Below, piece after piece: positions 22,958 through 42,732 of a stretch of DNA of 64,000 nt. A program made the translations under genes and the position numbers. This DNA comes from Firmicutes bacterium HGW-Firmicutes-1 (GTDB taxonomy: Bacteria; Bacillota; Clostridia; Lachnospirales; Vallitaleaceae): the NCBI GenBank assembly GCA_002841625.1, contig PHAG01000012.1, forward strand, positions 1-64,000. The letters are read 5' to 3'. Below the pieces are notes generated by a model. It did no database searches. It saw nothing but the letters and a program-made list of their open reading frames with translations, and had not been told where the DNA came from. How positions within the stretch are numbered: the first letter of the stretch is position 1; every line of letters begins with the position of its first letter.

Positions 22958-22963
22958 TGTTTG

Positions 22964-25593: not shown

Positions 25594-25729
25594 TATATCT
25601 CAAATTCACATCTAAGAAAAACAATGCTATCTTTGTTAAACGGATAAACTACATAAGATATACAAGATATAACGGCTATTAAAAAAACATGTATTGTATT
25701 GTTACTTAATTTAAATGAGGGGTAGGAAT

Positions 25730-25939
25730 ATGAAATTTACATTTGAAAGAACATTGAATGATGTATTGAATGATGATGATGCAAAGAAAATATTAGTTAA
25801 TCATTTAGGAGGATTAGTTGATGATCCAATAGTAGAAATGGTAAGAAGTAGAACATTGAAAGAAGTTGTAATGATGGCGGGGAGCTTGATTCCAGAGGAT
25901 ATAATCAAGTTAATTGAAAAAGAGTTAAACGATTTATAG
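25730..25939 (+). CDS. Small acidic helical protein of unknown function
   Basis: 69 residues, predicted wholly helical, with LNDVLNDDDAKKILVNHLGG in the first half and LIPEDIIKLIEKELNDL at the end. There is no Cys, signal peptide or membrane segment, and no carrier-type DSL motif. From memory the spacing resembles a short helical module at the ends of some secreted enzymes; this is untested. ATG 25730 is preferred because GAGGGG stands six bases upstream; an ATG at 25715 overlaps that site. It lies between the U32 gene and agrB. It could be a scaffold, a carrier or a second precursor. Confidence 0.6.
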   Translation: MKFTFERTLNDVLNDDDAKKILVNHLGGLVDDPIVEMVRSRTLKEVVMMAGSLIPEDIIKLIEKELNDL

Positions 25940-26062
25940 TAAAAAAATTAGTTCCAAAATGATATATGTTATTTTGCTTGTTACTATATTACAATTGTCT
26001 AATGGAAATGTACTGTTTTGCTTTATTCTATAGGATTCTAAGAAAATGAGAGAAGGACAATA

Positions 26063-26644
26063 ATGATTTCAAATATTTCAAGTAAATTAGCTATAGTTAT
26101 GTATAAAAATAACAACAAACAAATTGCTGATATAGAGGTTTACAAATACGGTCTAGAGTTGATGATATCTTCTATAGTAAATATGTTAGTAATGATTGGA
26201 TTATCATTAGCATTAAGTTGTTTTAAAGAAGCTATATTATATATTTTGTTTTTTGCAATTCTAAGAATTTCAGCTGGTGGATATCATGCATCTACTCATT
26301 TTAAATGCTTACTTTTGTACTCATTAATTATGTTTCCAATAATTCGTTTTATAGAAATTTTAAAAGTTGGATTAAATAGTCATTTTGTATTACTAGTGTG
26401 TTGTGTATCGATTTTTTGTGTATTTAGATATGCTCCTGTTGATTCGGAAAATAAGCCTTTGAATAAGAAAGAATATTATTTATTTAAGAAGAGTAGCAGA
26501 AATACCGTTTTAATTCAATCAACGATATTAATTCTATTAGTATTGTTAATAAATGACATATTTATTTACATATTGAGTTGTTCCGCAGGAATGTTTGTTG
26601 AATCCATTACCTTATTACCAATATTAAATCGAAGAAGGAGTTGA
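26063..26644 (+). CDS. agrB: AgrB, autoinducer-peptide processing membrane protease
   Basis: A 193-residue integral membrane Cys protease with about five membrane helices. The signature ISAGGYHASTHFKC carries catalytic His75 and Cys82, seven residues apart as in S. aureus AgrB (77 and 84). AgrB cuts the C-terminal tail off AgrD and closes the thiolactone ring. The stop overlaps the ribosome binding site of the small agrD gene, three bases downstream. Confidence 0.95.
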   Translation: MISNISSKLAIVMYKNNNKQIADIEVYKYGLELMISSIVNMLVMIGLSLALSCFKEAILYILFFAILRISAGGYHASTHFKCLLLYSLIMFPIIRFIEILKVGLNSHFVLLVCCVSIFCVFRYAPVDSENKPLNKKEYYLFKKSSRNTVLIQSTILILLVLLINDIFIYILSCSAGMFVESITLLPILNRRRS

Positions 26645-26646
26645 AA

Positions 26647-26799
26647 ATGAATATGAGATTAAAGAAATACAATGTAAAAATTTGGGCTCAATTAAGTTTG
26701 ATTGTAGTAACTATAGCGGATATGAGCTTATCGACCTGTTGTTTATGGTTATTAAACCAGCCTATATTACCAGAACAGCTAAAGAATAATAGATTGTAG
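26647..26799 (+). CDS. agrD: AgrD, autoinducer-peptide precursor (50 aa)
   Basis: A 50-residue peptide directly after agrB, with GAAGGAG upstream. An amphipathic N-terminal leader (residues 1-27) is followed by the signal region STCCLWLL and an acidic/polar tail NQPILPEQL. Counting from the second Cys (Cys32), Pro at +10 and Leu at +13 match S. aureus AgrD, so Cys32 should form a five-residue thiolactone ring Cys-Leu-Trp-Leu-Leu with an exocyclic tail of unknown length. The Cys-Cys pair is unusual. The gene is short and easily missed. Confidence 0.88.
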   Translation: MNMRLKKYNVKIWAQLSLIVVTIADMSLSTCCLWLLNQPILPEQLKNNRL

Positions 26800-26859: not shown

Positions 26860-28029
26860 ATGATAAAAGAAAGACTAGAGTTTATTCCTTTAACAAAGCT
26901 TGAATATTTAGATGATTTGGTATATCAAAATAACGATTATTTTAATTATGATATTGAAGTAATACAAAAACTGCAGTTTGGCTTTATTAAGCAGGCATAC
27001 ACACATCATTATAAAGTCAATAAAGATTTTAGAAATTATTCAAATAGGAGGGGTGTTAAACCAGACGACATAAAAAAACATGAGGATTTAATTAAAATAC
27101 CATTAATACCAAGCAGTATTTTTAAACTTAAAATAGTTAAAAGCTGCAATGAAAATGAAATTATAAAGGTTTGTACAAGCTCTGGAACAAAAGGATCCAT
27201 TAGTAAGGTTTATAGGGATGAGGTCACGTTAAATAGATTTTTAGGTGCAATGCAGACTGTCATTGATAATACTTTAGGCTTGGATGATGTCTTTTGTATT
27301 AATTTAGGCCCTTCAACAGAAGAAGCTGGTGATTTGTGGTTTTCCTATGTATTAAGTTTAATGGATATGGTATTTCCGATGGAGAATTTCATAGTTGACG
27401 GTAATTTTTATCCTCAAAAGGTTGTGGATCAAGTATGTGATGTCGTAGACAGATTTGAAAATATTGTCATCATAGGAGCTCCTATTATGTTTATTGAATT
27501 AATGAAGCATATGGAAGATCATGATATTAAAATCGATAAGTGTAAGTCAATTATGTTTATTACTGCTGGAGGTTGGAAACGTGCCTCGGGGCAAGCGATT
27601 TCTAAGAAAGAATTTTGTGAGCAATTAAAAAAATATTTTATTGGTATGAGTGAAGAGAATTCTAGAGACATATTTAATATGGTTGAGCTAAATACAATTT
27701 TTTGTGAATGTAATAAAAAGATTAAGCATTCTCCGCCATGGGTAAAAATATATATTATCGATCCTTTTACGTTAGAGCTTGTAAAGGATGGAGAAGTTGG
27801 TTTGATAGCTTATTTAGATCCGACAGCAGTAAGTTTTCCTTGTTTTATATTGACAGATGATGTTGGTAAGATTTCATTAAATGGACAATGTGAATGTGGT
27901 CGAACTGGACAAGGTCTTGAAATTATAAGGAGAGTAGAAAGTAAAGAATCCAGGGGTTGTGCTTTGAAAATTGATAAAAGATATTCCACTGAATATTATA
28001 AAGGAGGAGCTAATGGTACGAAGTTTTAA
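26860..28029 (+). CDS. luxE: LuxE-like acyl-protein synthetase
   Basis: 389 residues, close in length to Vibrio LuxE (~375). LuxE activates a fatty acid as acyl-AMP and holds it on a Cys before LuxC reduces it to aldehyde. Matching blocks are IPLIPSSIFKLKIVKS, CTSSGTKGSISKVYRD (ATP-binding), MFITAGGWKR, FNMVELNTIFCEC, and a C-terminal ESRGCALK whose Cys367 fits the acyl-accepting Cys364 of V. harveyi LuxE (LRGCSD). The start follows AAGGGAG. It overlaps luxD by 17 bases. No luciferase genes are in the window. Confidence 0.9.
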   Translation: MIKERLEFIPLTKLEYLDDLVYQNNDYFNYDIEVIQKLQFGFIKQAYTHHYKVNKDFRNYSNRRGVKPDDIKKHEDLIKIPLIPSSIFKLKIVKSCNENEIIKVCTSSGTKGSISKVYRDEVTLNRFLGAMQTVIDNTLGLDDVFCINLGPSTEEAGDLWFSYVLSLMDMVFPMENFIVDGNFYPQKVVDQVCDVVDRFENIVIIGAPIMFIELMKHMEDHDIKIDKCKSIMFITAGGWKRASGQAISKKEFCEQLKKYFIGMSEENSRDIFNMVELNTIFCECNKKIKHSPPWVKIYIIDPFTLELVKDGEVGLIAYLDPTAVSFPCFILTDDVGKISLNGQCECGRTGQGLEIIRRVESKESRGCALKIDKRYSTEYYKGGANGTKF

Positions 28030-28927
28030 TGAAAGAATTATTAATATAAAAACGAAAAATGGTGACGTCATACATAGCGTTTATAATTATTTCAAAGAGA
28101 ATACACCACTTATTATAATACCACCTCAATTTGAAAAAACTATCAGAACAAATTTAACCTTAATGATTTATTTAATAAATAACGGATTTAATGTACTGAG
28201 ATATGATAATAGATACCATAATGGAAACAGTACAGGAGATATAGAGGACTATAATTTGAAAACAGCATTAGAAGATCTAGAAATAGTTATTCAATATGTT
28301 AAATCTGATTCTAGTATTTATAATAATAATGGTATAGGACTTTTAGGTGTGAGTATAACAAGCCGTATCATATACAGATATCTGAGTGATAGTGTTAAGG
28401 ATATTGATGTTTTTTTAACATTAGTTGGTGTTGTAAATATGCAGTATACGCTGAATTCAATAATCGGCTTTGATATTGTTGATGAGGTGATTAAAGAGCC
28501 GAAAAAAATATGGGGAACTAGAAAAGTTATAAAGTATCCCGTCAATTGGGATAATTTCATAAAAATTCTAATTAACGAAAATATGCACAATTTGGAAACC
28601 GCTAATGAAGATATTCAAAAGATTAAAACACCGATTTATATTATTGCATCTGAAGATGATAAATGGGTTGATATTGAAGAATACGAAAAAGCATTTATTA
28701 CAAATAAAGAAATACTTAAAGGCGTTTACAAGCTTCCAGGTGCAGGACATGAATTATATAAAAATCCTGAGGCTGCAAAATTTGCGGCAGAACAGATTGT
28801 AAAAGTGTTTCAAGAATTTTGGGGCATTGAATCTGAACAACATATTATAAAACCAACAATAACAGACATTATAGCACACAATAAAAAGGAACGTGTTAGG
28901 GAGAAACAATATGAAAACGTAGGTTGA
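28013..28927 (+). CDS. luxD: LuxD-like acyl transferase/thioesterase (alpha/beta hydrolase)
   Basis: 304 residues, the length of Vibrio LuxD. LuxD takes an acyl group from acyl-ACP and releases fatty acid for LuxE. The region VLRYDNRYHNGNSTGDI and then GVVNMQYTLNSIIGFD are specific to LuxD (V. harveyi: GVVNLRYSLERALGFD). The nucleophile Ser114 in GVSITSR falls at the same residue number as in V. harveyi, and GAGHE gives the His. ATG 28013 is chosen because AAAGGAGGAG precedes it; it overlaps luxE, so the pair is coupled. Confidence 0.9.
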   Translation: MVRSFNERIINIKTKNGDVIHSVYNYFKENTPLIIIPPQFEKTIRTNLTLMIYLINNGFNVLRYDNRYHNGNSTGDIEDYNLKTALEDLEIVIQYVKSDSSIYNNNGIGLLGVSITSRIIYRYLSDSVKDIDVFLTLVGVVNMQYTLNSIIGFDIVDEVIKEPKKIWGTRKVIKYPVNWDNFIKILINENMHNLETANEDIQKIKTPIYIIASEDDKWVDIEEYEKAFITNKEILKGVYKLPGAGHELYKNPEAAKFAAEQIVKVFQEFWGIESEQHIIKPTITDIIAHNKKERVREKQYENVG

Positions 28928-28966
28928 TAAAGTCAACTTTTACAATTTATGAGGAGGAAATTAAAG

Positions 28967-30025
28967 ATGGTTATTGCATTAAAAGAAGAAACAAATCTGA
29001 TTACACCCAAAAAGAGTTGGAATGATCTAAAATTTCATTATTTATCAGTCATTGAAGATCCCTGGTATAAATCTGTAATGGATTTGCAGCATTTAATATC
29101 TTACTATACCTATATGTTTTATGAACAAAGAAATTTGAAAACTTTACATTTACCAATTACAACAAGCTCAATATCTAGTCCTATGGGATTAGGTAGCGAT
29201 TCAACGCCTGTAAAAGTAAATATATGTGATGTTGATACATATCTTGCAGATTCTATGCAATTTATGCTTGAGTATGGATGTAGAATTTATGAAGAAGGCT
29301 GCTTTTATATCATGCCTTCTTTTAGAGGAGAAGTAGCAGACGAAAGACATTTATGCCAGTTCTATCATAGTGAAGCAGAAATAATAGGTGGCCTTGATGA
29401 TGTAATAGCTTTAATAGAGGATTACGTTAAGTATTTATGTGAGAAACTTATAGAAAGCTATGAAGAAAAGTTATTAAAAGTAGCTGGAACTGTAGAGCAT
29501 ATAAGAGAAATATTAGCGGTAGTTGATGGATTTCCACGCATTACCTTACAAGAAGCAATAAAATTACTTGACAAAAAATATTCTAACTCTCTAAAACCGC
29601 TATATATCAAACACCCTGAAGGATTTACTATATTAACGAACTATGGTGAGAAAAAACTGATAGAGTTATTTGGAGGGATTGTATGGGTTACTCACTTTGA
29701 GCATTTGTCATTACCTTTCTACCAAGCATTCTCGGATAAAGAACAAAAATATGCATTAAATGCAGATTTATTATTTGGTATAGGAGAAGTCATTGGGGCA
29801 GGAGAAAGACATAAAGATTACGAAAAAGTGAAAAAAGCATTAAAAATTCACCAAGTAGAGGAACAGGAATATGAATGGTATTGTAATATGAAAAAGAAGT
29901 ATCCTATGCAAACTGCTGGTTTTGGGATGGGTGTTGAAAGATTTATATTATGGATATTACAACATGATGATATAAGAGATTGCCAAGTCCTTCCAAGATT
30001 TAATGGTATTAATTGTTTGCCATAA
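28967..30025 (+). CDS. AsnRS-related class II synthetase core without anticodon-binding domain
   Basis: 352 residues, beginning directly in a class II aminoacyl-tRNA synthetase catalytic core of the Asn/Asp type. TSSISSPMGLGSDSTPV precedes a flipping-loop-like region, motif 2 is PSFRGEVADERHLCQFYHSE (conserved FRxE), and motif 3 is GFGMGVERFILWILQHDDIRD with the conserved ER. The ~110-residue OB-fold that binds the anticodon in true AsnRS/AspRS is missing. Archaeal AS-AR, an asparagine synthetase derived from AsnRS, has the same architecture. So it probably activates Asp/Asn or a related acid without tRNA, perhaps to form an amide. ATG 28967 follows GAGGAGG. Confidence 0.8.
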   Translation: MVIALKEETNLITPKKSWNDLKFHYLSVIEDPWYKSVMDLQHLISYYTYMFYEQRNLKTLHLPITTSSISSPMGLGSDSTPVKVNICDVDTYLADSMQFMLEYGCRIYEEGCFYIMPSFRGEVADERHLCQFYHSEAEIIGGLDDVIALIEDYVKYLCEKLIESYEEKLLKVAGTVEHIREILAVVDGFPRITLQEAIKLLDKKYSNSLKPLYIKHPEGFTILTNYGEKKLIELFGGIVWVTHFEHLSLPFYQAFSDKEQKYALNADLLFGIGEVIGAGERHKDYEKVKKALKIHQVEEQEYEWYCNMKKKYPMQTAGFGMGVERFILWILQHDDIRDCQVLPRFNGINCLP

Positions 30026-30136: not shown

Positions 30137-30208
30137 TGCGGTGTAGCTCAATTGAAGAGCACTTGGTTCATTCCCAGGAAGATATTGGTTCAAATCCAGT
30201 CACCGTAA
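30137..30208 (+). tRNA. Divergent tRNA with CAU (Met) anticodon
   Basis: 72 nt folding as a cloverleaf. Acceptor TGCGGTG/CACCGTA pairs 7 of 7 with one G-U; D stem GCTC/GAGC; anticodon stem CTTGG/CCAGG with loop TTCATTC (anticodon CAU); five-base variable region; T stem ATTGG/CCAGT with canonical loop TTCAAAT; discriminator A. It resembles elongator tRNA-Met. Departures: the D loop (AATTGAA) lacks the G18-G19 pair, position 37 is T instead of a purine, the first pair is T-A, and no CCA is encoded. It is embedded in a locus with two MetRS paralogues. Confidence 0.75.
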
Positions 30209-30251
30209 CTCGTACGGTATAATATTAACGGTAAACAAGGTGGGTATTTAT

Positions 30252-32438
30252 ATGAAAAACATAAATTGTGTTGATATTATAGAGATAGATTCTGAAGTAT
30301 TATTACCATTTGCTTATTATTTAGCAGGGATGTATAAAAATCTAACATTTAATTCAGCGGTACCTTCCTTAAATACACAGCATACAAAATTGATAAAAGA
30401 AAGCCTGGATTTTTTAGGAATAGAGTATCAAACGGTAATGTTACAAGACAAAATAGAGCCAGTTGAATGGGATAAATTGTGTAATAAAATGTGTGATTCT
30501 ATACTCCATAATTTGATTGAAGTATATAAAGAACTTTATCCAAATCAGTTATTAGACTTAGAGGTAACTAAAGTAAAACATGAGGATTTAAAGGATCAAC
30601 CTATAATTGTGGGAATTACCGAGCAGGGTTTAGAACAAGCACTAAAAGGGGGTATTTTATTAGGAAGAACTGTAGTATATATTAATAAATTAAATGCCAT
30701 AGCGGACTTTTTTGAAATATCAAAAATGGCTTCCTCAACTATATTATGTTTTGATGAAGAATTTGAAGTTCAGCAAATGAAGTTCATCTTGGATCAGAAG
30801 ACAAAAGCAAAAAATTTAGTCCCTATAGGCTTTATGTATCCTTTTGGTCAATTGAATAGAGAAAATGTAATAACTAAAGCATTTATTTTTAATACCTATA
30901 GAAAAAAAGCAAAACTATTTAACTTTTACTATCCCTTAGAAAAGCAAAATGCATCCTTTAAGTCTGAAAAGTTTAATTTTTTTATTGGTAACACTCAGGA
31001 AGAAATAAAGGATTATATATTAAAGGAAGCCGAGTTTACGTTTGCAACACCACATTCAAACGGTGTAGATATGTCTATTGGTAACGTTGTATTGTGTGCT
31101 AAGAAAGACTATATAAAGGAGGAAGAAGATGAAATAAACAGGGTGATGCCATGCTTTTATTCTGATAGTTGTAATAGACTATCTCAAAATCGTTATTATA
31201 TAGGTGCAAGTGAGATAAAAAGTAAAATACTTTTTTTATATACCTGTTGGGGGATTGTTTTGAAAAATGGTATATATGATGTGCGAACAACACTTGCTTA
31301 TCAATTTGCTAAGTCAGTCTATTCACCCATTCTTATAACAACGTATGCTATGTCCTTACTTGACAGATATGCAGGACCTTATATTGTGGATTTGTATTGT
31401 ATGGGGAAAAAAATAGGAGAAGCGATTGAATCATACAATAATAAGCATTATGAAAAATATATGGATTTGAATAACGTAGTTGTTTTATTTGGAGATCCAG
31501 AATTTAAACTTGAGATAAGCTCTGTAATTAATTTCAATGCGATTTTAACTGAAACGAAAAAATTAAGTGACTTTTTTCGCGAAGAAAACACAGGAAAACT
31601 TTGTTTTCATTTATTTGATAAAAATTTCTTTAATAACTTGGATTTTACAGATTATGTATTAAATGGGACTGCTTCATTGGGAATGAAGTATATACAGGAA
31701 GATATTGATGTGTTGAGAGAAAAAGTGAGAAATCTAAGAATGAATGCATCGCTGTTAAATAACCGTATGATGCAATCTAAACAATTTGTATACGATTATG
31801 ATAAAAGTATTAAACAATTGAGTGTAGCCTATAAAGGTTTTCAAGTAGCATGGTATGAATTTTATAAAACCATGGTTAATAATTTGGGTGGATATATTAG
31901 ATTTCAAGTGGATAGATATTTTTCGATGCCTGAGGAAGACAAAGAAGGTTTGCATAGGGAATGTCCATATTGTAAAACTTGTGTAAAAATAGAGAAAAAA
32001 GAACTGCAACCACACGGTTTGAAACGAAGACTAATAGAGTGTTTTAATTGTGCAACTATATTCGATGGGCTCGATTCGTTTTTATGGGGTGAAATAAAAT
32101 GTGAGGAGGAATGGCGGCAAGGCAGTATGGTTAAAGTTTCTGTAGAGGCTTATACAAAAATGAGTGGTGAATATTGTTATTTAATAGGGCTTATCGTTGA
32201 ACCGTTTGATAAAAAGAAAGGATTAAATATGCCTGCAACTTTTAAAAAGGGAAAGATTGACTTGGGAAAAATGGACTTAAATATATGCTTAGATGAGCTT
32301 TACATATACGATTATATAGATTTAGGTTGTTATCATTTAAATTGTATTATACTAGTAAATGAAAAAATTGTTTTTTTGAGACGACCTATATATATTACAA
32401 GGGGGAATAAAGAAGATGATGAAAAGTCAATATTGTAG
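30252..32438 (+). CDS. Large protein with clan-CD-like (caspase fold) peptidase signatures and a zinc ribbon
   Basis: 728 residues, no family recognised with certainty. The middle part shows the clan CD pattern of C25/CHAT-type Cys peptidases: His268 in ATPHSNGVD, then a hydrophobic strand ending in Cys332 (KILFLYTCWG), then YQFAKSVYSPILITTYA and VVLFGDPEFKL, which resembles the end of C25 domains. Residues ~570-610 form a zinc ribbon (CPYC and CFNC pairs). A coiled segment lies between. If the reading is right, it could cut the leader from a peptide precursor. ATG 30252 follows AAGGTGGG; its end overlaps the YcaO gene by 23 bases. Confidence 0.5.
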   Translation: MKNINCVDIIEIDSEVLLPFAYYLAGMYKNLTFNSAVPSLNTQHTKLIKESLDFLGIEYQTVMLQDKIEPVEWDKLCNKMCDSILHNLIEVYKELYPNQLLDLEVTKVKHEDLKDQPIIVGITEQGLEQALKGGILLGRTVVYINKLNAIADFFEISKMASSTILCFDEEFEVQQMKFILDQKTKAKNLVPIGFMYPFGQLNRENVITKAFIFNTYRKKAKLFNFYYPLEKQNASFKSEKFNFFIGNTQEEIKDYILKEAEFTFATPHSNGVDMSIGNVVLCAKKDYIKEEEDEINRVMPCFYSDSCNRLSQNRYYIGASEIKSKILFLYTCWGIVLKNGIYDVRTTLAYQFAKSVYSPILITTYAMSLLDRYAGPYIVDLYCMGKKIGEAIESYNNKHYEKYMDLNNVVVLFGDPEFKLEISSVINFNAILTETKKLSDFFREENTGKLCFHLFDKNFFNNLDFTDYVLNGTASLGMKYIQEDIDVLREKVRNLRMNASLLNNRMMQSKQFVYDYDKSIKQLSVAYKGFQVAWYEFYKTMVNNLGGYIRFQVDRYFSMPEEDKEGLHRECPYCKTCVKIEKKELQPHGLKRRLIECFNCATIFDGLDSFLWGEIKCEEEWRQGSMVKVSVEAYTKMSGEYCYLIGLIVEPFDKKKGLNMPATFKKGKIDLGKMDLNICLDELYIYDYIDLGCYHLNCIILVNEKIVFLRRPIYITRGNKEDDEKSIL

Positions 32439-34677
32439 CTTAGCTAAAATAATATATGAAGCAGAAATGGGTAAAGTCTGTGTTATAGAAAAAATGGGTC
32501 ATACAAAGAATGAAGTTTATAAAGTTATAGGTGAGGATAATGAAAAATACTTGATTAAGTTATTTCTCAATGAAGGAGATTTAGATATAAAAAACTGTGA
32601 GCTTATTATGTATGAGGTGTTAGGAAGCGTAGGGTATTTGAAGAAATGCTTTAAAAAGGATTTTAACTCAAAGACATATAATATAAGTTATGTTATAACA
32701 GAATACTTGGAGGGAAGAACTCTATTAGAGGTTATTGAAAAGGAGCATTACTCAGAGGAACAATTAAAGAAATATGTTAAACAAATTTATGAATATATTC
32801 AATTTTGTAGGGATATAGAGACAAAAGGCGTTGGTAATATAAATGAGAAGTTGATTGGTGAAGATAATAATTGGTTTAACTTCATGATTAAGTTCCTAGA
32901 TAACTGTTATGAAAGAACAAAAGGATTAAAACCCTGTGATAATGCCACAACTCTTATAGATATAAATTGTTTCTTGAGAAAATATTTAATTCAAAACAAG
33001 GTGTATTTTGAAAATATTATTCCTTCATTGATACCGATTGATTTAAATTTATCTAATTTTTTAATTAAGGATAATGATGAAGTAGTCGTTTTAGATGTAG
33101 ATGCTTTTTGGTCAGGAGATTGCTTTTTGGCAATGGGAGAGTTTATTGGACATATTTATGGAACTCATATTTTTAACTATTTTATTGAGTTATGGTCTGA
33201 TGTATACAAGAAAAACGCAAGATATCTGCATTTTTATGCGCTTTTGAGCAATTATTCTGTGTTGACCTTCTTGTCTAATAATGACATACATAATTTGCAT
33301 AATTATAAGCCATGGGGGAATAAATGTACCTTTTTTGATTTGATTCATTCTCATAGGTACATAGTTGATAATGAAGCTATAAATATCTTGAATATACTAA
33401 AAAACAATCCTTATTTAAATAATGATTGGGGAAAGAAAGTTGAAATGGCTTGTGATAGAGAGGTAGAAATAAAGGAAACTTTATCAAACATAGAACGAAT
33501 ATCAAGTAAAGCTGGGATTACAAGAGTTCCAGAAATAACAGGATTGGATTCTACGGGCATTTTCGCATACCAGTGCATTCGACCAGATGCTGAAAAAAAC
33601 GATGGAACCTTTACTGTATTTTCAGGAAAAGGGACTAGCGAAGAGCAGTGTAAGGTATCTGCTATCGTTGAAGGAATTGAACGATTTTGTGCAGAGAAAA
33701 GAAACTATCACAATGAAATTAAAGTAGCAACTTACGAAGAGATGATAAAAGAGCATAAGGTGATTCATCCTAAAGAGTTTAATTGTCCTAATTCTGTTAA
33801 TTTTTCTGAACAGGAAGTTTTAGAGTGGATACCAGCCCAGGATATTATTTCTGGTAAATGTTATTATATAACTGCAAATGTTGGATTTTATCCATATACA
33901 CCTAATTATGGAAGAATGCTATTTAGATATTTTACAACAGGCTTAGCCGGAGGAAATACTTATAGTGAAGCAATATCCCATGGTATTGCAGAAGCAATAG
34001 AAAGGGATGCGGCTGCCTTGAATTTGTTATTAAGAAATTATCCAGTTCTTATTAAGGATACTGTTACCAGCAAAAATGCGAGGGTAATTATTGAAAAAAT
34101 ACAGAACTCAAAATCGAGTTTAAATCTGATTATAAGATATATTACAACAATAGACATTAATGTCCCTGTTTTTTCAGTCATAATTGAAGATAAAGATATA
34201 GAAGATCCTTTGTTTATTAGTGGAGGCTATGGTGCACATCCCAATAAAGAAATTGCGTTAATAAATGCTTTAAACGAAGCAGCACTTTCAAGAGTAAGTA
34301 CAATCAGCGGTTCAAGAGAGGATCTTGAAAAGTTTAGAAAGGCTAAAGAAAATAAAGATTATGCTACCTTTAAACAAAAATATAATTATTGGTTCTCTAC
34401 TCAAGAACAAATTTCTTACGATGAAATTGAAGATTATAAATCTATTTTTTTAATGGAAGACATTGGATATATGTGTGATTGCTTAAAAAATGCGGGGTTG
34501 GAGAAAGTATTAATGGTAGATTTGTCGAACCCAGATATTCGTTTCCCTGTCGTTAAAATGCTTATCCCGGGAATTGAAAGATACTCATATGAAAGAGTTT
34601 GTATTGGTACTAGAGCAAAAATGTATTATAACTTAGTACATAATAAAAATACAAATAATAGTATTGTAAAGGCTTAA
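32416..34677 (+). CDS. ycaO: Aminoglycoside-phosphotransferase-like domain fused to YcaO
   Basis: 753 residues. Residues ~1-300 look like an APH/choline-kinase fold: a Lys strand (KYLIKLFL), then IPIDLNLSNFLIKDNDEVVVLDVDAF as catalytic and metal loops (the usual HGD is IDL here, so activity is doubtful). Residues ~355-753 are YcaO: GITRVPEITGLDSTGI, SGKGTSEEQCKVSAIVEGIERF and SEAISHGIAEAIERDAA supply the ATP-binding acidic residues. The C-terminus lacks the Pro-rich PxPxP end of azoline-forming YcaO proteins, as expected for TfuA-dependent, thioamide-forming ones. YcaO phosphorylates a backbone amide for attack by sulfide. A kinase-YcaO fusion is unusual. Confidence 0.85.
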   Translation: MMKSQYCSLAKIIYEAEMGKVCVIEKMGHTKNEVYKVIGEDNEKYLIKLFLNEGDLDIKNCELIMYEVLGSVGYLKKCFKKDFNSKTYNISYVITEYLEGRTLLEVIEKEHYSEEQLKKYVKQIYEYIQFCRDIETKGVGNINEKLIGEDNNWFNFMIKFLDNCYERTKGLKPCDNATTLIDINCFLRKYLIQNKVYFENIIPSLIPIDLNLSNFLIKDNDEVVVLDVDAFWSGDCFLAMGEFIGHIYGTHIFNYFIELWSDVYKKNARYLHFYALLSNYSVLTFLSNNDIHNLHNYKPWGNKCTFFDLIHSHRYIVDNEAINILNILKNNPYLNNDWGKKVEMACDREVEIKETLSNIERISSKAGITRVPEITGLDSTGIFAYQCIRPDAEKNDGTFTVFSGKGTSEEQCKVSAIVEGIERFCAEKRNYHNEIKVATYEEMIKEHKVIHPKEFNCPNSVNFSEQEVLEWIPAQDIISGKCYYITANVGFYPYTPNYGRMLFRYFTTGLAGGNTYSEAISHGIAEAIERDAAALNLLLRNYPVLIKDTVTSKNARVIIEKIQNSKSSLNLIIRYITTIDINVPVFSVIIEDKDIEDPLFISGGYGAHPNKEIALINALNEAALSRVSTISGSREDLEKFRKAKENKDYATFKQKYNYWFSTQEQISYDEIEDYKSIFLMEDIGYMCDCLKNAGLEKVLMVDLSNPDIRFPVVKMLIPGIERYSYERVCIGTRAKMYYNLVHNKNTNNSIVKA

Positions 34678-34708
34678 AACAAATGATGTGAAAGGGGGTG
34701 TTGACAAG

Positions 34709-34846
34709 GTGAGTATTGAGAATAAAGAGGATAAATCAACAAAAGAAGATAATAAGGAGAATATTGAATACTTTGAACTTAATGAGGGATTAGACGAAAT
34801 TTTTGACGAATTTGAAGTAGGGCCAGAAACCGCATTGATGTGGTGA
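34709..34846 (+). CDS. Candidate precursor peptide (45 aa)
   Basis: A GTG-started 45-residue frame, eight bases after AAAGGGGGTG, directly downstream of the YcaO gene and 27 bases before the methyltransferase. It is highly acidic. Residues 1-18 are a Lys/Glu/Asp/Asn-rich start, then IEYFELNEGLDEIFDEFE looks like a helical leader recognised by a modification enzyme, and the short C-terminus is VGPETALMW. There is no Cys or signal peptide. Position, size and composition fit a ribosomal peptide precursor with a core in the last ~9 residues. No homologue was recognised, so its function is inferred from context. Confidence 0.65.
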   Translation: MSIENKEDKSTKEDNKENIEYFELNEGLDEIFDEFEVGPETALMW

Positions 34847-34873: not shown

Positions 34874-35731
34874 ATGATTTTACAAGAGTATTTAGCAGAG
34901 GATATTAAAAAAATGGATTACAATCAGTTAATAGGCTTGGTAAAGGAAACCAATAGACCACCTGGGGGTTTTAACAGTATAAAATTGTTGGCATTAAGTG
35001 CATTTTTAACACCCAATAGCAGGGTGCTTGAAATAGGAACAAGTACGGGGATAACCTCAATTGAATTAGCCAAACTTGTAGGCTGTAAAATTAAGGCGAT
35101 TGATATCAATCCAGTTAGTATTGAAGAAGCAAAGAAAAGAGCCAAGGCCGAAGGTGTTGATAACTTAATAGAATTTGAAGTTCAAGATGCAACAAATACA
35201 ACCTTTCCTGACAACTTCTTTGATATGGTTTTCTGTGGGAATGTAACCTCTCTCATTGAACAGAGAGAAAAGGCTTTTGCTGAATATATTCGTGTGCTTA
35301 AGAAAAATGGTTTTATAGCGGCCATTCCTATGTATTACATAAAAAAACCATCTAAAGAATTAATTGAAGACGTATCAGCTGCAATACAAGTTAATATTAT
35401 CCCCTGGGATAGAAAGTATTGGTTTGAATTCTTTAAGGACGAAAAAATAGAATTATGTTGGTATGAAAATTATCAATTTGATACTATTAAGACTGAAGAT
35501 GTTCATGCTTTTTCGGATGAAATATTAAAAAGAGACCATCTAAAGTGTTTGAAATTGGAGGCTTATGAAGTGCTTAAGAAAAAATATAGAGAGTTTATGA
35601 TGCTATTTAGGGATAATTTAAGTCATATGGGTTACAGTTTAATGTTAATCAGAAAAACACAATATGAAGTGGATAATGAACTTTTCACATCAAGCATCAT
35701 TACTGATGATAATCAAGTATATGGTTATTAA
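34874..35731 (+). CDS. SAM-dependent class I methyltransferase
   Basis: 285 residues. SAM-binding motif I is VLEIGTSTGITSIELAK, motif II/acidic ribose contact is KIKAIDINP, and DNFFDMVFCGNVTSL plus YIRVLKKNGFIAAIP complete the Rossmann methyltransferase core (residues ~40-165). The C-terminal ~110 residues are variable and should give substrate choice. AAGGAG precedes the ATG. Its place between the candidate precursor and the DHH gene suggests tailoring of the product; the atom methylated is unknown. Confidence 0.85.
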   Translation: MILQEYLAEDIKKMDYNQLIGLVKETNRPPGGFNSIKLLALSAFLTPNSRVLEIGTSTGITSIELAKLVGCKIKAIDINPVSIEEAKKRAKAEGVDNLIEFEVQDATNTTFPDNFFDMVFCGNVTSLIEQREKAFAEYIRVLKKNGFIAAIPMYYIKKPSKELIEDVSAAIQVNIIPWDRKYWFEFFKDEKIELCWYENYQFDTIKTEDVHAFSDEILKRDHLKCLKLEAYEVLKKKYREFMMLFRDNLSHMGYSLMLIRKTQYEVDNELFTSSIITDDNQVYGY

Positions 35732-35749
35732 TTAATAGGGAGGTATATG

Positions 35750-36739
35750 ATGCGTGAGGTATGTATTATATCCCATTCTGGAGATCCAGATGGCATTTTT
35801 TCACAGGCACTTTTGTTAAAGCATACAAGAAACGCAGTTTCTCGTATTCATAGTTTTATGATTGAAAATGATGAAATCATCCAACTCCTAAAGCGTGATG
35901 AAATAAGAAATTGTAGTGAATTGTATATTGCAGATTTGCCGCTAAATGAAGCGGCTATAACTGATAGTGAATTATTAGAATTATTGTCAGATAAAGATTT
36001 ATATTATTATGATCACCATTATTTGAGCAACAGTAGAGACAATCTTTTGAAGAATATTTGCAAAGTTTACTTGAGAGAAGAGGCAGTTTGTGCAGCTAAA
36101 ATTATCTCTCGAGTTCTTTTTCCATTAGAGCCATATCCCGAATTTGTATCTGAAATAGCACAAGCTTGTGATTTTAATATTATAAATGACAGGTTTTGGG
36201 TAGGCCAGAAATTAAGAAGAATAATAAGCGTAATATCAATTGATGAAAGAGATGAACTTGTAGATGATATTATTCGAGGAACATGGTTTGACGGAATGAA
36301 TCTTCATGAAAAATATGTGGCTAAAGAAAGTGAAGCTAATAAGTTGGAAAAGGCTGCGATTATGTTTATGAATGAAATGACAGAATTATTTGAGATTAAA
36401 GATTACAAATTTGCGATTTCATATGCATCACAAATTTTATACATGAAGCCTGGTCTAAGCAATTTAGCAGTATGCAATCCTCAATGTGATGCGGTCATTG
36501 TTTTATATGAGGGAAAGTCTGATGTATTATTAACAGCTGCATTAGGAATAAATGCAAATGCAATACCCATTTTGGAATATTGTGTTTATAAAGGAGGTGG
36601 AGGTAGAAATAACGCAGGAGGATATAAGTTAGAAAAAGAAAAAATAATAAGTCGTGAAAACTATCTAGAAATCAAGAACCATATTATAAAGGATTTTACA
36701 GAGTATTTAAAAACAATTGAATTTGAATATAATTATTAA
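35750..36739 (+). CDS. DHH/DHHA1 family phosphoesterase
   Basis: 329 residues with the DHH metal-dependent phosphoesterase signature: SHSGDPDGIFSQ (DxD motif, with Ser/Gly altered from HxDxDG), ADLP, YYDHH (the DHH motif), and a DHHA1 substrate domain ending in GGGGRNNAGGYKL. Family members cleave nanoRNA, pAp or cyclic dinucleotides with Mn. The altered first motif (HSGDPDG) keeps both Asp. In this locus it may clear AMP-type by-products or hydrolyse a nucleotide intermediate, an inference. The start at 35750 gives better spacing to GGGAGG than the ATG at 35747. Confidence 0.82.
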   Translation: MREVCIISHSGDPDGIFSQALLLKHTRNAVSRIHSFMIENDEIIQLLKRDEIRNCSELYIADLPLNEAAITDSELLELLSDKDLYYYDHHYLSNSRDNLLKNICKVYLREEAVCAAKIISRVLFPLEPYPEFVSEIAQACDFNIINDRFWVGQKLRRIISVISIDERDELVDDIIRGTWFDGMNLHEKYVAKESEANKLEKAAIMFMNEMTELFEIKDYKFAISYASQILYMKPGLSNLAVCNPQCDAVIVLYEGKSDVLLTAALGINANAIPILEYCVYKGGGGRNNAGGYKLEKEKIISRENYLEIKNHIIKDFTEYLKTIEFEYNY

Positions 36740-36813: not shown

Positions 36814-38298
36814 ATGGAAAAATCAATACATCTACCAGTTATTGTAGGCGGTAAAAAAGTATATCCAAATGAGGATAGAGAGAACTATATTATTTCATAT
36901 GATTCGGGTGTTAAAGTTGTAATTCCTACAATTACAAATGAGGAAATTCAACAATTACAAGAATCAAATAAATATATATTACATGATTTAAATATTCAAG
37001 AAATCATATCTTTTTTTGTGAAAGTTGGAAAATTTTGGAGAGTAAATAATTTAAACAATCCTTTATATGAAGAGGCACTTGTAAATTTATGTTTAATCAA
37101 TGGCTACGATAAAAAGATGGCAATAAGAGAGTTAAACATTATTGGGTCAGCTTGTTCACAGTTATCGGGAATGTATGACTTGATTGATCTTGAACTTGGA
37201 AATAGATTCTATTTAGAAGAATGGGTTCCACGAGGAGATGTCTTAGTTCATGTTCAGCCAGTAGGAAACGTATTAAATATTATGGTTGGGAATGTACCTG
37301 TTTCAGGGATAATGTCATTACTTAGAAGCAGCCTTACAAAAAACCAAACAATTGCAAAAATACCTAAAAGAGATCCTATTACGGTAATGTATTTTGTCAT
37401 GTCTATGATAGAGTTATTCCCAGACCATCCTATCACAAGATCAATGAATGTATTGTATTGGCCTGGTGGTAATGAAATCGAATCCACAATTATAGATATG
37501 GCAAATGCTGTATGTGTTTGGGGAAGCGAACAAGCAGTGAAAAGTATACGTTCAAAGGTTAAAAATGGTGTAAATGTAGTTGAATTTGGTCCAAAGATGA
37601 GTTATGCATTAGTGGGGAAAGAATCTGTTAACTGCGAAAAAGTTGCAATAGACCTTGCACACGATATTTCAATATACAATCAAGAAGCTTGTTTTTCACC
37701 ACAAATTGCATTCGTTGAAGGAAATTACAAGTTGTTTATTGAGCATCTAAAAATGGGTTTAAAGTTATATAGCAAATTATTTCCAAAAGGAACAATTATT
37801 GCTGATGCCAATGCACATGTATCTCGGACAAGGTTAGAAGCGTTATATAATGGCAACGAAGTATATTATGATGACCAGAAGGAATGGACTATTATTACCA
37901 TTAACAGCTTAGATGAGATTAACGAACACCCTCTTAATCGAGTTATTTTCGTTAAACCTATAAAGAATATCACGGACTGTCTTGAATATATTGATGAAAC
38001 TGTTCAAACTATTGCAATTTCTCCATGGGACAGAAATGTAGAAATAAGAGAAATTGCAACCTTAAAAGGTGCAGCAAAAGTTACTGAAATAGGATTAGTA
38101 GAAGCAATGAGAAATGGATCAACACATGATAACGTATACCCAATGCAGCATTTAGTAAGATGGGTATGTGTTGAAAGAGGTTGTGATTACTGGGGTAAAT
38201 ACATTGAGGATGGGCCTTTAGACACTACTAAATGGATTATGATGAATGAAAAGGAATTAGAAAACATTGATGCTTACTTAGAAAATGATGTAATCTGA
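36814..38298 (+). CDS. luxC: LuxC-like acyl-CoA/acyl-protein reductase
   Basis: 494 residues, the length of Vibrio LuxC. It is an aldehyde-dehydrogenase-superfamily enzyme that reduces the acyl group presented by LuxE to a fatty aldehyde with NADPH. Clear LuxC blocks: LPVIVGGKKV at the start, YDLIDLELGNRFYLEEWVPRG, AGNVP-type VGNVPVSGIMSLLRSSLTKNQ, MNVLYWPGGNEIE, VEFGPKMSYALVG, and IYNQEACFSPQ whose Cys293 fits the catalytic Cys of LuxC. It lies apart from luxE/luxD with RiPP-type genes between, all on one strand. AGGAGAAG precedes the ATG. Confidence 0.92.
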   Translation: MEKSIHLPVIVGGKKVYPNEDRENYIISYDSGVKVVIPTITNEEIQQLQESNKYILHDLNIQEIISFFVKVGKFWRVNNLNNPLYEEALVNLCLINGYDKKMAIRELNIIGSACSQLSGMYDLIDLELGNRFYLEEWVPRGDVLVHVQPVGNVLNIMVGNVPVSGIMSLLRSSLTKNQTIAKIPKRDPITVMYFVMSMIELFPDHPITRSMNVLYWPGGNEIESTIIDMANAVCVWGSEQAVKSIRSKVKNGVNVVEFGPKMSYALVGKESVNCEKVAIDLAHDISIYNQEACFSPQIAFVEGNYKLFIEHLKMGLKLYSKLFPKGTIIADANAHVSRTRLEALYNGNEVYYDDQKEWTIITINSLDEINEHPLNRVIFVKPIKNITDCLEYIDETVQTIAISPWDRNVEIREIATLKGAAKVTEIGLVEAMRNGSTHDNVYPMQHLVRWVCVERGCDYWGKYIEDGPLDTTKWIMMNEKELENIDAYLENDVI

Positions 38299-39225: not shown

Positions 39226-39426
39226 ATGCGAGTAAATGTGAATGGAAAAATAACTAATGTTAGTAAAAATGAAAAACTTTTAGATTTGTTGGAACAAATT
39301 GAATTAAATCCAAAGTCAGTAGTAATAGTATATAATGGAGAAACATTACCCAGAGATGAGTGGGATGCAGCTCATTTAAAAGAAGAGGATACAATAGAAA
39401 TTATAAAGTTTATAGTTGGAGGTTGA
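39226..39426 (+). CDS. ThiS-like sulfur-carrier protein
   Basis: 66 residues of ubiquitin-like beta-grasp type: MRVNVNGKITNVSKNEKLLD, VVIVYNGETLPRDEWD, EEDTIEIIKFIVGG. The C-terminal Gly-Gly is the site that an E1-like enzyme adenylates and converts to a thiocarboxylate, a deliverable sulfur. It lies five bases before the ThiF-like gene. There is no thiG, thiH or other thiamine gene nearby, so it is more likely to serve the YcaO/TfuA pair than thiamine. AAAGGAGAG precedes the ATG. Confidence 0.88.
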   Translation: MRVNVNGKITNVSKNEKLLDLLEQIELNPKSVVIVYNGETLPRDEWDAAHLKEEDTIEIIKFIVGG

Positions 39427-39431
39427 TATCT

Positions 39432-40229
39432 ATGTCCACCGATATATATAATCTGATAAATGAGAAAGAAGTGCAAAGGTATTCAAGACAAATTATGCTT
39501 AAGGGTGTAGGCATAGAAGGACAAAAAAAGTTAAAGAATGCAAAGGTATTAGTTGTAGGCACTGGAGGACTTGGATCTCCAATTTTATATTATCTAGCGG
39601 CTGTAGGTGTTGGAACTCTTGGGATAGTAGATTTTGACATAGTTAATCGTACCAACCTACAGAGACAAATACTTCATTATGAAAAAGATCTTTCAAGATA
39701 TAAAGTAGACTCTGCAGAGGAGAAATTGTTAGAGCTTAATAATAATATTAAAATTATTAAACATAAGCAAAAAATTGATGAATTTAATATTGAAAAAATT
39801 ATAATTGATTATGATATTGTTGTTGATGCAGTTGATAATTTGAAATCTAGATATATTATTAACGATTTCTGCCATTTTTTGAATAAGCCACTGGTTGAAG
39901 GTGCTGTATCAGGTTTTGAGGGCATATTGTTAACAATTTTGCCCTCCTTTAAAACCTGTTGTTATAGATGTTTATTTCCAGAACAAGAAGAAGAGGCTGT
40001 TACATACGGAAGTGAAAACGGTATATTAGGGGCAGTTGCTGGCGGTCTTGGAAGTCTTATGGCATTAGAGGTTATAAAGCTAATATTAGGTATAGGAACA
40101 CCTTTAACAAACAAAGTATTTGTTTATGATGGTTTAAATTTAAAATTTAGAGAAATAGAAATCGCTCATAAAAAAGATTGCATATTATGTGGTGAAGCAC
40201 CACAATTAAAACGAGAGTTTTATTACTGA
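39432..40229 (+). CDS. ThiF/MoeB-like E1 adenylyltransferase
   Basis: 265 residues. The nucleotide-binding loop GTGGLGSPILYYLAAVGVG, then DFDIVNRTNLQRQILH with the Arg/Gln residues of E1 enzymes, and zinc Cys pairs in CYRC and CILC. It should adenylate the C-terminal Gly of the adjacent ThiS-like protein. At the position of the ThiF persulfide Cys there is Ser (TYGSENG), so it is MoeB-like and sulfur must come in via another protein. A distant relative, MccB, builds microcin C on a peptide, worth keeping in mind given the MccF-like gene downstream. ATG 39432 follows GGAGG. Confidence 0.88.
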   Translation: MSTDIYNLINEKEVQRYSRQIMLKGVGIEGQKKLKNAKVLVVGTGGLGSPILYYLAAVGVGTLGIVDFDIVNRTNLQRQILHYEKDLSRYKVDSAEEKLLELNNNIKIIKHKQKIDEFNIEKIIIDYDIVVDAVDNLKSRYIINDFCHFLNKPLVEGAVSGFEGILLTILPSFKTCCYRCLFPEQEEEAVTYGSENGILGAVAGGLGSLMALEVIKLILGIGTPLTNKVFVYDGLNLKFREIEIAHKKDCILCGEAPQLKREFYY

Positions 40230-40271: not shown

Positions 40272-41750
40272 ATGAAAAAAATAATTACTACTGCTGCCTA
40301 TCCATTCATTCCAGCAGAGCTTAACATGGCACATATGGCAAGTACATATATTCCAGCGGATGTGTATCATAGATTTATGAAATTGCTTGGGTATAATAGT
40401 GTTTTTGTTTCGGCTACGGATGTTCATGGTGTAGCCGTCAAAAATATATTGAAAAATAATGATATGGATTTAGAAGAAATAATTTGCACTTTTCACGAAA
40501 AATATAAAAAGTTATTTTCCTGTTTAAACGTAAAATTCGACACTTACAGCAGAACAGATACCAGGGATGTTGAAGAACTTGTTCGTCAATCTCTTATAAA
40601 GATTAAAGAAAAGGGTTATATTATTAAGAAAGAAAGTAGCAATTACTATTGTAAGCAATGTTCGGAATATCTTCCCAAGAGATTTCGTATTAAGACTCAA
40701 GAATTTACCCAAACAAATAAGATGAAGTTAAGTGGTAATCAAGAGGACATGTGCTGTTTTTTTTGTGGTAATACAGAAATTGCAGAACAAAAAATTGATC
40801 ATTGGTTTCTTGACATTCCTAAAGGCAAAGAGATTATTAGTGAGATAGTTACAAAACAAACTAATAAAAACGTAAAAACATATTTAGAATCTGTAATCAA
40901 TTTAGGTCTAAAGGAATGGGATTTTACAAGAGAGGACTATATAGGGATTAGGATTCCATTTGAAGAAAAAGAACAATATATTTATTTATGGTATGAGTCT
41001 TTGATTGCATATATGACACTCTTTGATAGAGAGGAAGATGTAGAACTTAGGCACTTTATGGGTAAAAATATTATTTACTATCATGGCATTATTTGGCCAT
41101 TACTTTTAAGGGAAGGTTTAAATATTAAAAATATGGATATGCATATTTGTGCAAAGGGATTTATGAATATTACAAAATCAGACTCAGTACTAATAGATAT
41201 TGAAAAAGCTGTTCAAAAATTTGATAAAGATTATTTAAGGTTTTATATTATATATAGAACCCAGGACACAATTGATGATTTTAGTTTTACAGAAAATCAT
41301 TTTAAGCAGATCATAAATAAAGTTTTGTGCCGTCAGCTAGGCGGATTCCTTAATAGGTGTAGAAGTATTTTAATGAAAAATAAAGTAGAAAATGTTCCGA
41401 AATGGAATAAAGAAGACGAGTTATTAACGGACAGTAAGCCTTTATTAGAAGTGGCTATTTTAAATATGAATGTTAATAATGCATTAATGCTTGTAATTGA
41501 GTATATTAAAAAATGCGGAAAATATATTCAATTACATACTATATACAAATCACCTTCTAAGGAACAACTTGGTTTATTATGTCACATGATGGCATCAGTA
41601 ATTATTTTGCTCAAACCTTTTATTCCGGATGTAATAAATAATTACAATATATTTAATAACATAGAATTAAAATCCTTGGATCAATTAGAATTTTTAGAAG
41701 GGGAAAAAGTAATATATAATAATTTGATATGGGAGATGCTTGATGAATAA
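40272..41750 (+). CDS. Degenerate methionyl-tRNA-synthetase-like protein
   Basis: 492 residues, collinear with MetRS but with altered key motifs. The HIGH box is NMAH (in LNMAHMAS) and the KMSKS loop is NITKS. Methionine-pocket residues stay: Asp in SATDVHG, Trp in YIYLWYES, His in NIIYYHGIIWP. The zinc knuckle (CKQC, CCFFC) is kept. In the anticodon domain, the Trp of the LPWQL block (which reads the CAU anticodon in MetRS) is replaced: GKYIQLHT. It probably binds methionine or an analogue without normal tRNA-Met charging. It ends overlapping the MccF-like gene by eight bases. Confidence 0.82.
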   Translation: MKKIITTAAYPFIPAELNMAHMASTYIPADVYHRFMKLLGYNSVFVSATDVHGVAVKNILKNNDMDLEEIICTFHEKYKKLFSCLNVKFDTYSRTDTRDVEELVRQSLIKIKEKGYIIKKESSNYYCKQCSEYLPKRFRIKTQEFTQTNKMKLSGNQEDMCCFFCGNTEIAEQKIDHWFLDIPKGKEIISEIVTKQTNKNVKTYLESVINLGLKEWDFTREDYIGIRIPFEEKEQYIYLWYESLIAYMTLFDREEDVELRHFMGKNIIYYHGIIWPLLLREGLNIKNMDMHICAKGFMNITKSDSVLIDIEKAVQKFDKDYLRFYIIYRTQDTIDDFSFTENHFKQIINKVLCRQLGGFLNRCRSILMKNKVENVPKWNKEDELLTDSKPLLEVAILNMNVNNALMLVIEYIKKCGKYIQLHTIYKSPSKEQLGLLCHMMASVIILLKPFIPDVINNYNIFNNIELKSLDQLEFLEGEKVIYNNLIWEMLDE

Positions 41751-42732
41751 ACGTATAAGAAAAGGTGATACAGTTTATGTATGTGCACCTTCAAATTCCA
41801 TGAGTGATATTAGTGATGAAATGATAAAAATAGGGGTAGAACGATTTAATACATTAGGGTATAATGTAAAAATAGGAAAAAATGCGAATAAAGAAGGGGT
41901 AATGGGAATTGCTTCTTTAGAAGATAGACTTGAAGATTTTGAAGCAGCATTTAACGATGAAAGAATTTCATTGATTATGCCCATTTTTGGAGGGTACAAT
42001 TCTAATGAGTTGTTAAAACACTTAGATTATGGGAAAATAAATCGTTCTGGCAAGACTATCATTGGTTATAGTGATATTACAGCTTTACTGAATGCTATTA
42101 ATATGAAAACGGGTAATAAAATGCTCCATGGTATCTCATTTTCATCTTTTTGTGATCCTAATATTTTTGATGAAGTCGTAAATATTTTTTTGAAAATAAT
42201 TGAGGGAGAAAAAAATATTATTTTAGAGTCTCCAGAATATTGTGCCGAGGATTTATGGTTTTTGAAAAAAAAGTATGGACCTAGAGAAAAATATAAAAAT
42301 ACTGGTTGGCGGATTGTGAAAGAAGGAGAAGCGGAGGGGGAATTAGTAGGAGGTAACATTGATACTTTACTTACTTTGTTGGGTACAGAATTTTTCCCTA
42401 ATATGGACAACAAAATATTATTAATTGAAGCTGAATTTAATCAAAATCCTAAAAAATTTATGCAAATGTTAACACAGCTCATGCAAATGGGATGTTTATC
42501 AATTATAAAAGGTCTAGTAGTAGGAGCTTTTTCACGGACAAACTTATTATATGAGCCCAATGTATTGGACGAAATGTTAATAAGGTATACAAAAGGATAT
42601 AATTACCCTATTATTTCTAACACTCATTTTTCACATATAGATCCAATTTATACGATTCCAATTGGTGGTAGAGTCCATATCGATTGCATTGAGAAGCCGT
42701 CTATATGTATTAAAGATTCTTTGTATGATTGA
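41743..42732 (+). CDS. MccF-like S66 peptidase (LD-carboxypeptidase family)
   Basis: 329 residues of the S66 Ser peptidase family. The nucleophile is Ser110 in GKTIIGYSDITAL, with a late Glu (LLIEAEF) and His (SNTHFSHIDP). The long middle loop (GWRIVKEGEAEGELVGGN) is the MccF type rather than the LdcA type. MccF protects microcin C producers by cutting the amide bond of the processed aminoacyl-nucleotide toxin, which blocks an aminoacyl-tRNA synthetase. Between two MetRS paralogues, a self-immunity job is a natural inference; murein recycling is the alternative. ATG 41743 overlaps the previous stop. Confidence 0.85.
   Translation: MNKRIRKGDTVYVCAPSNSMSDISDEMIKIGVERFNTLGYNVKIGKNANKEGVMGIASLEDRLEDFEAAFNDERISLIMPIFGGYNSNELLKHLDYGKINRSGKTIIGYSDITALLNAINMKTGNKMLHGISFSSFCDPNIFDEVVNIFLKIIEGEKNIILESPEYCAEDLWFLKKKYGPREKYKNTGWRIVKEGEAEGELVGGNIDTLLTLLGTEFFPNMDNKILLIEAEFNQNPKKFMQMLTQLMQMGCLSIIKGLVVGAFSRTNLLYEPNVLDEMLIRYTKGYNYPIISNTHFSHIDPIYTIPIGGRVHIDCIEKPSICIKDSLYD

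Follow-up and report, generated by a model that had tools for sequence, protein, structure and literature searches.

Gene content of the block around the short frame

The window, that is, the whole stretch of 64,000 nucleotides analysed here, carries a gene block in which a frame of 45 codons lies directly behind a gene for a YcaO protein. The block begins with genes for LuxE, LuxD and an AgnA-like enzyme, followed by a tRNA gene and by genes for a 732-aa protein, YcaO, the peptide, a methyltransferase, a DHH-family protein and LuxC. Behind a decayed transporter it continues with ThiS, ThiF, a first MetRS (MetRS1), an S66 peptidase, a second MetRS (MetRS2) and TfuA. All genes are on one strand, some of them overlap, and those assigned to thioamidation are interleaved with those of a nucleotide module. 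The features are as follows.

22226..26799, + strand: agr-type quorum regulators upstream of the block (AgrA at 22226, AgrC at 22961, AgrB at 26063, AgrD at 26641)
26860..28029, + strand: LuxE-like acyl-protein synthetase, with a cysteine (GCAL) close to its C-terminal end (family match, motif)
27971..28927, + strand: LuxD-like acyltransferase or hydrolase (family match)
28949..30025, + strand: AgnA-like class II enzyme (asparagine synthetase A/AsnRS-like), proposed to form an N-P bond (homology, motifs)
30137..30209, + strand: tRNA(CAU), proposed as a dedicated Met donor that takes no part in decoding (Rfam tRNA model, 55.9 bits against a gathering score of 29)
30240..32438, + strand: 732-aa protein, candidate leader peptidase (by eye a caspase-like His in HSNGVD, Cys in TCWG, and CxxC pairs)
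32416..34677, + strand: YcaO with its domain at residues about 348-733 (PF02624, E 5.5e-66) and a kinase-like region at the N-terminus (weak match to Pkinase)
34691..34700, + strand: ribosome-binding site (RBS) of the peptide gene, AAAGGGGGTG (by reading; match 7/7)
34709..34846, + strand: acidic 45-aa peptide that may be the precursor of a thioamidated peptide (frame, RBS, coding score)
34874..35731, + strand: SAM methyltransferase of the AgnA module (identity to partners in AgnA loci; tblastn)
35747..36739, + strand: DHH-family phosphoesterase-like protein (PF01368, below cut-off)
36814..38298, + strand: LuxC-like acyl reductase, with a cysteine in ACFSP (family match, motif)
39226..39426, + strand: ThiS-like sulfur carrier with a Gly-Gly end (TIGR01683, over cut-off)
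39432..40229, + strand: ThiF/MoeB-type E1 with GTGGLGS and two CxxC pairs (family and motif scan)
40272..41750, + strand: MetRS1, divergent, proposed Met-tRNA-dependent transferase (23% identity to the housekeeping MetRS)
41740..42732, + strand: S66/MccF-like peptidase, proposed self-immunity (family match, tblastn, alignment)
42800..44359, + strand: MetRS2 with canonical HLGH and KKISKS, proposed resistant copy (44% identity to the housekeeping MetRS)
44347..45057, + strand: TfuA-like partner of a thioamidating YcaO (PF07812, 138.7 bits; NF033432, 233.7 bits against a cut-off of 235.2)

AgrB and AgrD were called by HMM, and AgrA and AgrC by reading the translations and by similarity to the AgrA/AgrC-like regulators of L165, which are 32-35% identical to those of the window. 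L165 (positions 9717-19434), from genome G620 of the same phylum, is an AgnA-like cluster with an S66 peptidase and with what look, on inspection, like a transporter and a radical SAM protein. The agr region of the window also holds a gene for a U32 peptidase-family protein (24451-25593). Beside the agr genes, a frame of 69-74 aa at 25730-25939 has an RBS match and a coding score of 0.31; no family match was found for it.

The LuxC-, LuxD- and LuxE-like enzymes could activate or reduce the C-terminus of the 45-aa peptide, and these enzymes as well as the DHH-family protein may act in the pathway proposed below. The interval between LuxC and ThiS (38299-39225) contains what is left of an ECF/ABC transporter ATPase and, apparently, of a membrane protein, both interrupted by frameshifts and stops; these pieces may stem from a transporter that the cluster has lost or from an old insertion. 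The 732-aa protein is a candidate protease by its residues. It matched no family in the scans, and a search of 392 genomes of the order returned only the protein itself. No relative was found in plasmids or, by pattern search, in GTDB contigs, single-protein patterns reaching close relatives only. Its structure model had a mean pLDDT of 31 and was unusable.

The short frame and the thioamidation genes

As originally predicted, the frame starts with GTG at 34709, ends with a TGA stop at 34844-34846, encodes 45 aa and is preceded, 8 bases before the start, by AAAGGGGGTG. An alternative in-frame GTG at 34688 would yield 52 aa, but its RBS is poorer. The peptide is indeed acidic, with 15 D/E residues compared to 4 K; it contains no Cys and ends in Met44 and Trp45. 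YcaO ends at 34677 and the methyltransferase gene starts at 34874, and the 196-base gap between them is mostly taken up by the frame, which leaves 31 bases to YcaO and 27 bases to the methyltransferase gene. Among 5000 dinucleotide shuffles of this gap, an ORF of at least 45 codons occurred in 144, and an ORF together with an RBS match in 37. With 37/5000 per gap and about nine gaps, fewer than 0.1 chance frames with an RBS are expected over the block. The codon log-odds of the peptide gene (0.405 per codon) exceeded those of all 352 segments of 45 codons taken from 39 genes of the window, and none of 105 spurious ORFs scored as high. By synonymous choice alone, the gene was placed at the 54th percentile of the 352 real segments and was equalled by 5.5% of 200 spurious ORFs; amino-acid composition accounts for part of the high score. 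The evidence from RBS, shuffling and coding score supports the view that a real small gene lies directly behind a thioamide-type YcaO, and the 45-codon frame is very probably translated. The claim that no other short frame in the block has such signals did not hold, as the ThiS gene (39226-39426, 66 aa) has an equal RBS match and a score of 0.30.

YcaO itself was best matched among the NCBIfam models by TIGR03266, which describes McrA-glycine thioamidation (283 bits, under the cut-off of 365), and in the PDB by MJ1094 (E 7e-40). TfuA is encoded 9.7 kb downstream of YcaO and not adjacent to it. Both ThiS and ThiF are intact. ThiF, with 265 aa, is too short to hold an N-terminal RRE, and its length and MoeB/ThiF type ruled it out as an MccB. 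Matches to YcaO were obtained in 8 of 398 genomes of the phylum and in 2 of 22 genomes of the family (own genome counted), and 80 GTDB loci were kept. The fetched stretch contained a TfuA match in 68 of these 80 loci, and ThiF occurred in several methanogen loci as well. Because of this co-occurrence, YcaO and TfuA can be grouped with a sulfur supply of the ThiF type into one consistent set, which by sequence similarity appears nearest to that of methanogens; a thioamide on some peptide backbone is its natural expectation.

Precursor is the likeliest role of the 45-aa peptide, which would then be the substrate of YcaO. The part of the original prediction that withstood analysis is the gene beside a thioamide-type YcaO; the block also encodes a TfuA. 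The predicted pattern of a conserved leader and a variable core is unsupported, as the searches returned no relative of either the peptide or the cluster. The peptide had no match in the family scan; its best local score among 18520 small ORFs was 39, and all 20 shuffled versions of it reached 38-47. A similarity to the precursors of Paraburkholderia and Pantoea YcaO loci, suspected by eye, failed the shuffle control. Those loci (L011 and L012, on plasmids) are YcaO-TfuA-ThiF-MFS-cupin clusters with candidate precursors of 50-54 aa upstream of YcaO at about 12000.

The AgnA-type module, the MetRS pair and the operon tRNA

The AgnA-like enzyme is 40% identical to AgnA, the agrocin 84 synthetase of pAgK84, and about 52-54% identical to relatives on plasmids of Peribacillus, Exiguobacterium, Xenorhabdus, Pantoea and Streptomyces. 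It has the class II ATP motifs FRGE and GMGVER. Besides the window, the 388 phylum and 386 class genomes contained a single relative, that of G620 (57% over the aligned part); none occurred in viral contigs. For comparison we used nine AgnA plasmid loci (L154-L162). By tblastn, homologues of the methyltransferase were detected in five of the nine and homologues of the S66 peptidase in six. The methyltransferase is 51% identical to its counterpart in L157, 45% to that of L159, which lies beside agnA, and 54% to that of L160; identities to homologues reach up to 55%. In the S66 peptidase, S111, E230 and H299, which we take to be the catalytic triad, are invariant in all seven sequences compared.

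Five of the nine loci also encode an extra aaRS: AlaRS in L154 and L156, LeuRS in L157, AgnB2 (a LeuRS) in L159, and in L160 a class II enzyme of the His/Gly/Thr/Pro kind; none was found within the 12-15 kb searched on each side in L155, L158, L161 and L162. Agrocin 84 is produced from pAgK84, and its TM84 is a Trojan-horse LeuRS inhibitor. The window resembles the agrocin 84 system in the AgnA-type enzyme, the adjacent methyltransferase, the MccF-like S66 peptidase (29%) and an extra aaRS as self-immunity. It differs in the target, which is LeuRS there and would be MetRS here, and no methylpentanamide genes were recognised in it; a ribosomal peptide, the YcaO set, a degenerate MetRS and a tRNA are added. 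In the agrocin producer, AgnB2 of pAgK84 is described as the LeuRS that resists TM84 (PMC5059758). If the extra aaRS marks the target of the product, as in the case of AgnB2, the product of the window would mimic methionyl-adenylate.

The housekeeping MetRS is encoded on another contig (C10), so that MetRS1 and MetRS2 are two further copies. MetRS2 is likely the resistant target. In MetRS1 both activation motifs are altered, HIGH to NMAH and KMSKS to NITKS, and by analogy the enzyme may be a Met-tRNA-dependent transferase that places Met onto an adenosine phosphoramidate. The analogy is to ascamycin, for which AcmD is described as a product-resistant, tRNA-charging AlaRS and AcmF as a degenerate AlaRS-like protein that takes Ala from Ala-tRNA and places it on a nucleoside sulfamate (PMC12945691), and to SB-203207/8, for which SbzA, with slightly modified HIGH and KMSKS motifs, is reported to use Ile-tRNA as its Ile donor (PMC6331615). 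As in these systems, an aaRS-like transferase with altered motifs would stand beside, or be served by, a normal synthetase, and aminoacyl-tRNA is the proposed donor. The acceptors there are sulfamate and sulfonamide and the amino acids Ala and Ile, in contrast to the phosphoramidate and Met proposed here; a tRNA gene is present in the window but goes unmentioned in the excerpts of the two accounts (PMC12945691, PMC6331615). L154 and L156 each encode a full AlaRS together with a short AlaRS-like protein whose match is weak, arranged as AcmD/AcmF, so a pair of a normal and a degenerate synthetase occurs in the AgnA family too. The two MetRS genes had originally been linked to the Met-Trp end of the peptide; an agrocin-84-type nucleotide module together with tRNA(CAU), which the original prediction does not name, explains them better.

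tRNA(CAU) is located between the AgnA-like gene and the gene of the 732-aa protein. ARAGORN found 49 tRNAs in the submitted stretches of the genome, five of them in the window, and a covariance search gave 51 matches in the genome. Of the 49, tRNA(CAU) is the only one with no GG in its D-loop; it has U37, and no other has a pyrimidine at this position. We compared its 21 stem pairs to those of what is, from its sequence, presumably the elongator tRNA-Met of the same genome: 13 pairs were unchanged, two had one-sided and six two-sided changes, and none was broken. Such a pattern suggests that the fold is under selection and that the gene is not a decaying copy. The tRNA has kept A73, C34 A35 U36 and C3-G70, which are given among the bacterial Met identity elements (PMC9976931). 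The tRNAs(Gly) that serve cell-wall synthesis in S. aureus are described to have similarly lost G18G19 and to bind EF-Tu weakly (PMC4052509). An argument from the EF-Tu-related pairs of the T-stem lost weight in a control, since A-U occurs at both pairs in 6 of the 49 tRNAs and is hence not distinctive. No tRNA gene lies within the cluster in any of ten AgnA-family loci, the tRNA-Ser of L158 being 9 kb off, and the tRNA is thus not part of the general AgnA module. Just upstream of tRNA(CAU), at 30054-30120, we observed an inverted repeat with arms of 17 nt, 94% complementary and 33 nt apart, which has no further copy in the window besides its own two arms and is a candidate for a processing signal or a small mobile element.

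A possible peptide-nucleotide pathway and its alternatives

We tentatively favour the explanation that the frame is a genuine small gene and its peptide part of one hybrid peptide-nucleotide pathway directed against MetRS. The AgnA-like enzyme and the methyltransferase would produce a (methylated) adenosine 5'-phosphoramidate. A dedicated, non-decoding tRNA(CAU) would be charged with Met by MetRS2 or the housekeeping MetRS, and MetRS1 would transfer Met from this tRNA onto the phosphoramidate nitrogen. The resulting methionyl-phosphoramidate nucleotide would imitate methionyl-adenylate in a stable form and poison MetRS; MetRS2 would provide self-immunity as a resistant target, and the S66 peptidase would be a second line. 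YcaO and TfuA would thioamidate the 45-aa peptide with sulfur delivered via ThiS/ThiF. The peptide would be trimmed, perhaps by the 732-aa protein, and attached or presented as a carrier by which the product enters competitors.

Genes, homologies, the state of the motifs and the anatomy of the tRNA are direct observations, and the nucleotide half of this pathway is well supported; we infer the structure of the product and the joining of the peptide to the nucleotide. Relatives of AgnA are accompanied by ATP-grasp proteins (L154 and L156 by annotation, L165 by eye) or condensation domains (L160, L161), and either kind could be used for adding amino acids or peptides. Neither an ATP-grasp nor a condensation domain was recognised in the block of the window, and the ribosomal peptide and its modification set would fill the slot of these proteins; by this analogy, the peptide may be a Trojan-horse carrier. 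No ligase for peptide and nucleotide was recognised in the block. LuxE as this ligase would be a guess, and LuxC suggests reduction instead.

The full form of the proposed product, a peptide-nucleotide antibiotic in which a thioamidated ribosomal carrier is combined with Met from the retired tRNA of the operon to give a MetRS-blocking Met-NH-P(O)-adenosine, is possible but doubtful. If it exists, it would unite thioamidated ribosomal peptides and agrocin-type aminoacyl-phosphoramidates, which have so far been separate in the literature covered; their combination was not found in open-licence literature. Methionine and MetRS would join a series that includes Leu and, judged by the synthetase, Ala, and a biosynthetic operon would possess a non-decoding tRNA of its own. 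A testable rule would follow, namely that a duplicated synthetase beside an AgnA/methyltransferase/S66 module is the target of the product.

The block may also make two independent products, one a thioamidated peptide and the other a methionyl-phosphoramidate nucleotide antibiotic, that are never joined, which we regard as unlikely. Consistent with this, YcaO occurs without AgnA in the fetched stretch of all 80 GTDB loci, and AgnA occurs without YcaO in all nine plasmid loci and in L165. A tblastn search of the YcaO loci (E 1e-4) gave no LuxE, MetRS, AgnA, S66 or 732-aa protein, the loci from phylum and family genomes comprising only about 4 kb. Used as a marker, LuxE matched in 102 of 391 class genomes, the best other match being at about 32%. 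No relative of the whole cluster was detected in the order, class, phylum and family genomes, plasmids, GTDB contigs and viral contigs scanned. A second cluster in which peptide and nucleotide genes travel together was thus not found, which counts against the hybrid pathway. Against two separate products, the genes of both halves do not form adjacent blocks but are interleaved on one strand and partly overlap.

A logic like that of microcin C would instead use the peptide itself as the Met source. Met44 would become the payload after removal of Trp45, AgnA would convert the C-terminal carboxyl into an N-P-linked nucleotide, and peptidases of the target cell would release Met-NH-P-adenosine. 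Met is in the penultimate position and MetRS is encoded in the cluster, and such a logic, with Asn and MccB, is described for microcin C (PMC12250964). The window shares with microcin C the combination of peptide and aminoacyl-phosphoramidate nucleotide as well as MccF-type immunity, but has no MccB, its peptide ends in Trp and not in Asn, and the nucleotide would be formed by an AgnA-type enzyme. We consider this route improbable: it leaves no job for MetRS1 and the tRNA, the removal of Trp45 needs an extra step by an unrecognised agent, and no precursor was recognised beside the AgnA relatives, where five small frames from four loci included none that were alike.

There is a similarly small chance that the frame is no YcaO substrate at all, the peptide being an acidic accessory or regulatory protein or the frame untranslated, with YcaO-TfuA acting on one of the cluster's enzymes or on a housekeeping protein as its thioamidation target. 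YcaO is nearest to the McrA-modifying type, whose substrate is an enzyme, thioamidation of the ribosomal protein uL16 has been published (PMC13063428), and no conservation of core or leader is demonstrable. Against this stand the strong coding and RBS evidence, the position of the gene and the embedding of YcaO in a biosynthetic operon. A PEARL-like scaffold, in which aminoacyl-tRNA supplies residues that extend the peptide at its C-terminus and the end group is removed later, would suit the cluster tRNA, the C-terminal Trp and the MetRS paralogues, and PEARLs are described to take aminoacyl-tRNA including Trp-tRNA (PMC12945691), but it is very improbable, as none of the 20 proteins and frames scanned with Pfam in the block matched a LanB-type dehydratase family and the 732-aa protein matches no family.

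The hybrid pathway that we favour would also differ from the thioamidated RiPPs known so far (thioviridamide-like, thiovarsolins, std). Like these, the window has YcaO, TfuA and a small precursor candidate beside YcaO; in contrast to them, its set is nearest to the methanogen McrA set and comes with ThiS/ThiF and a nucleotide module, and the precursor is unlike those compared. In the nucleotide half, a further close parallel is L160 (positions 11923-20065, on a plasmid of Streptomyces sp. NBC_01707), which encodes an AgnA-like enzyme, a methyltransferase, a molybdopterin oxidase, a class II aaRS and an S66 peptidase. L160 looks like a phosmidosine cluster, an assignment based on what we take to be the structure of phosmidosine. 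Its AgnA-like enzyme and methyltransferase (each 54%) and S66 peptidase (25%) resemble those of the window, while the presence of a class II aaRS and a molybdopterin oxidase points to a product with prolyl and 8-oxo-adenine parts, and condensation domains occur where the window has a ribosomal peptide.
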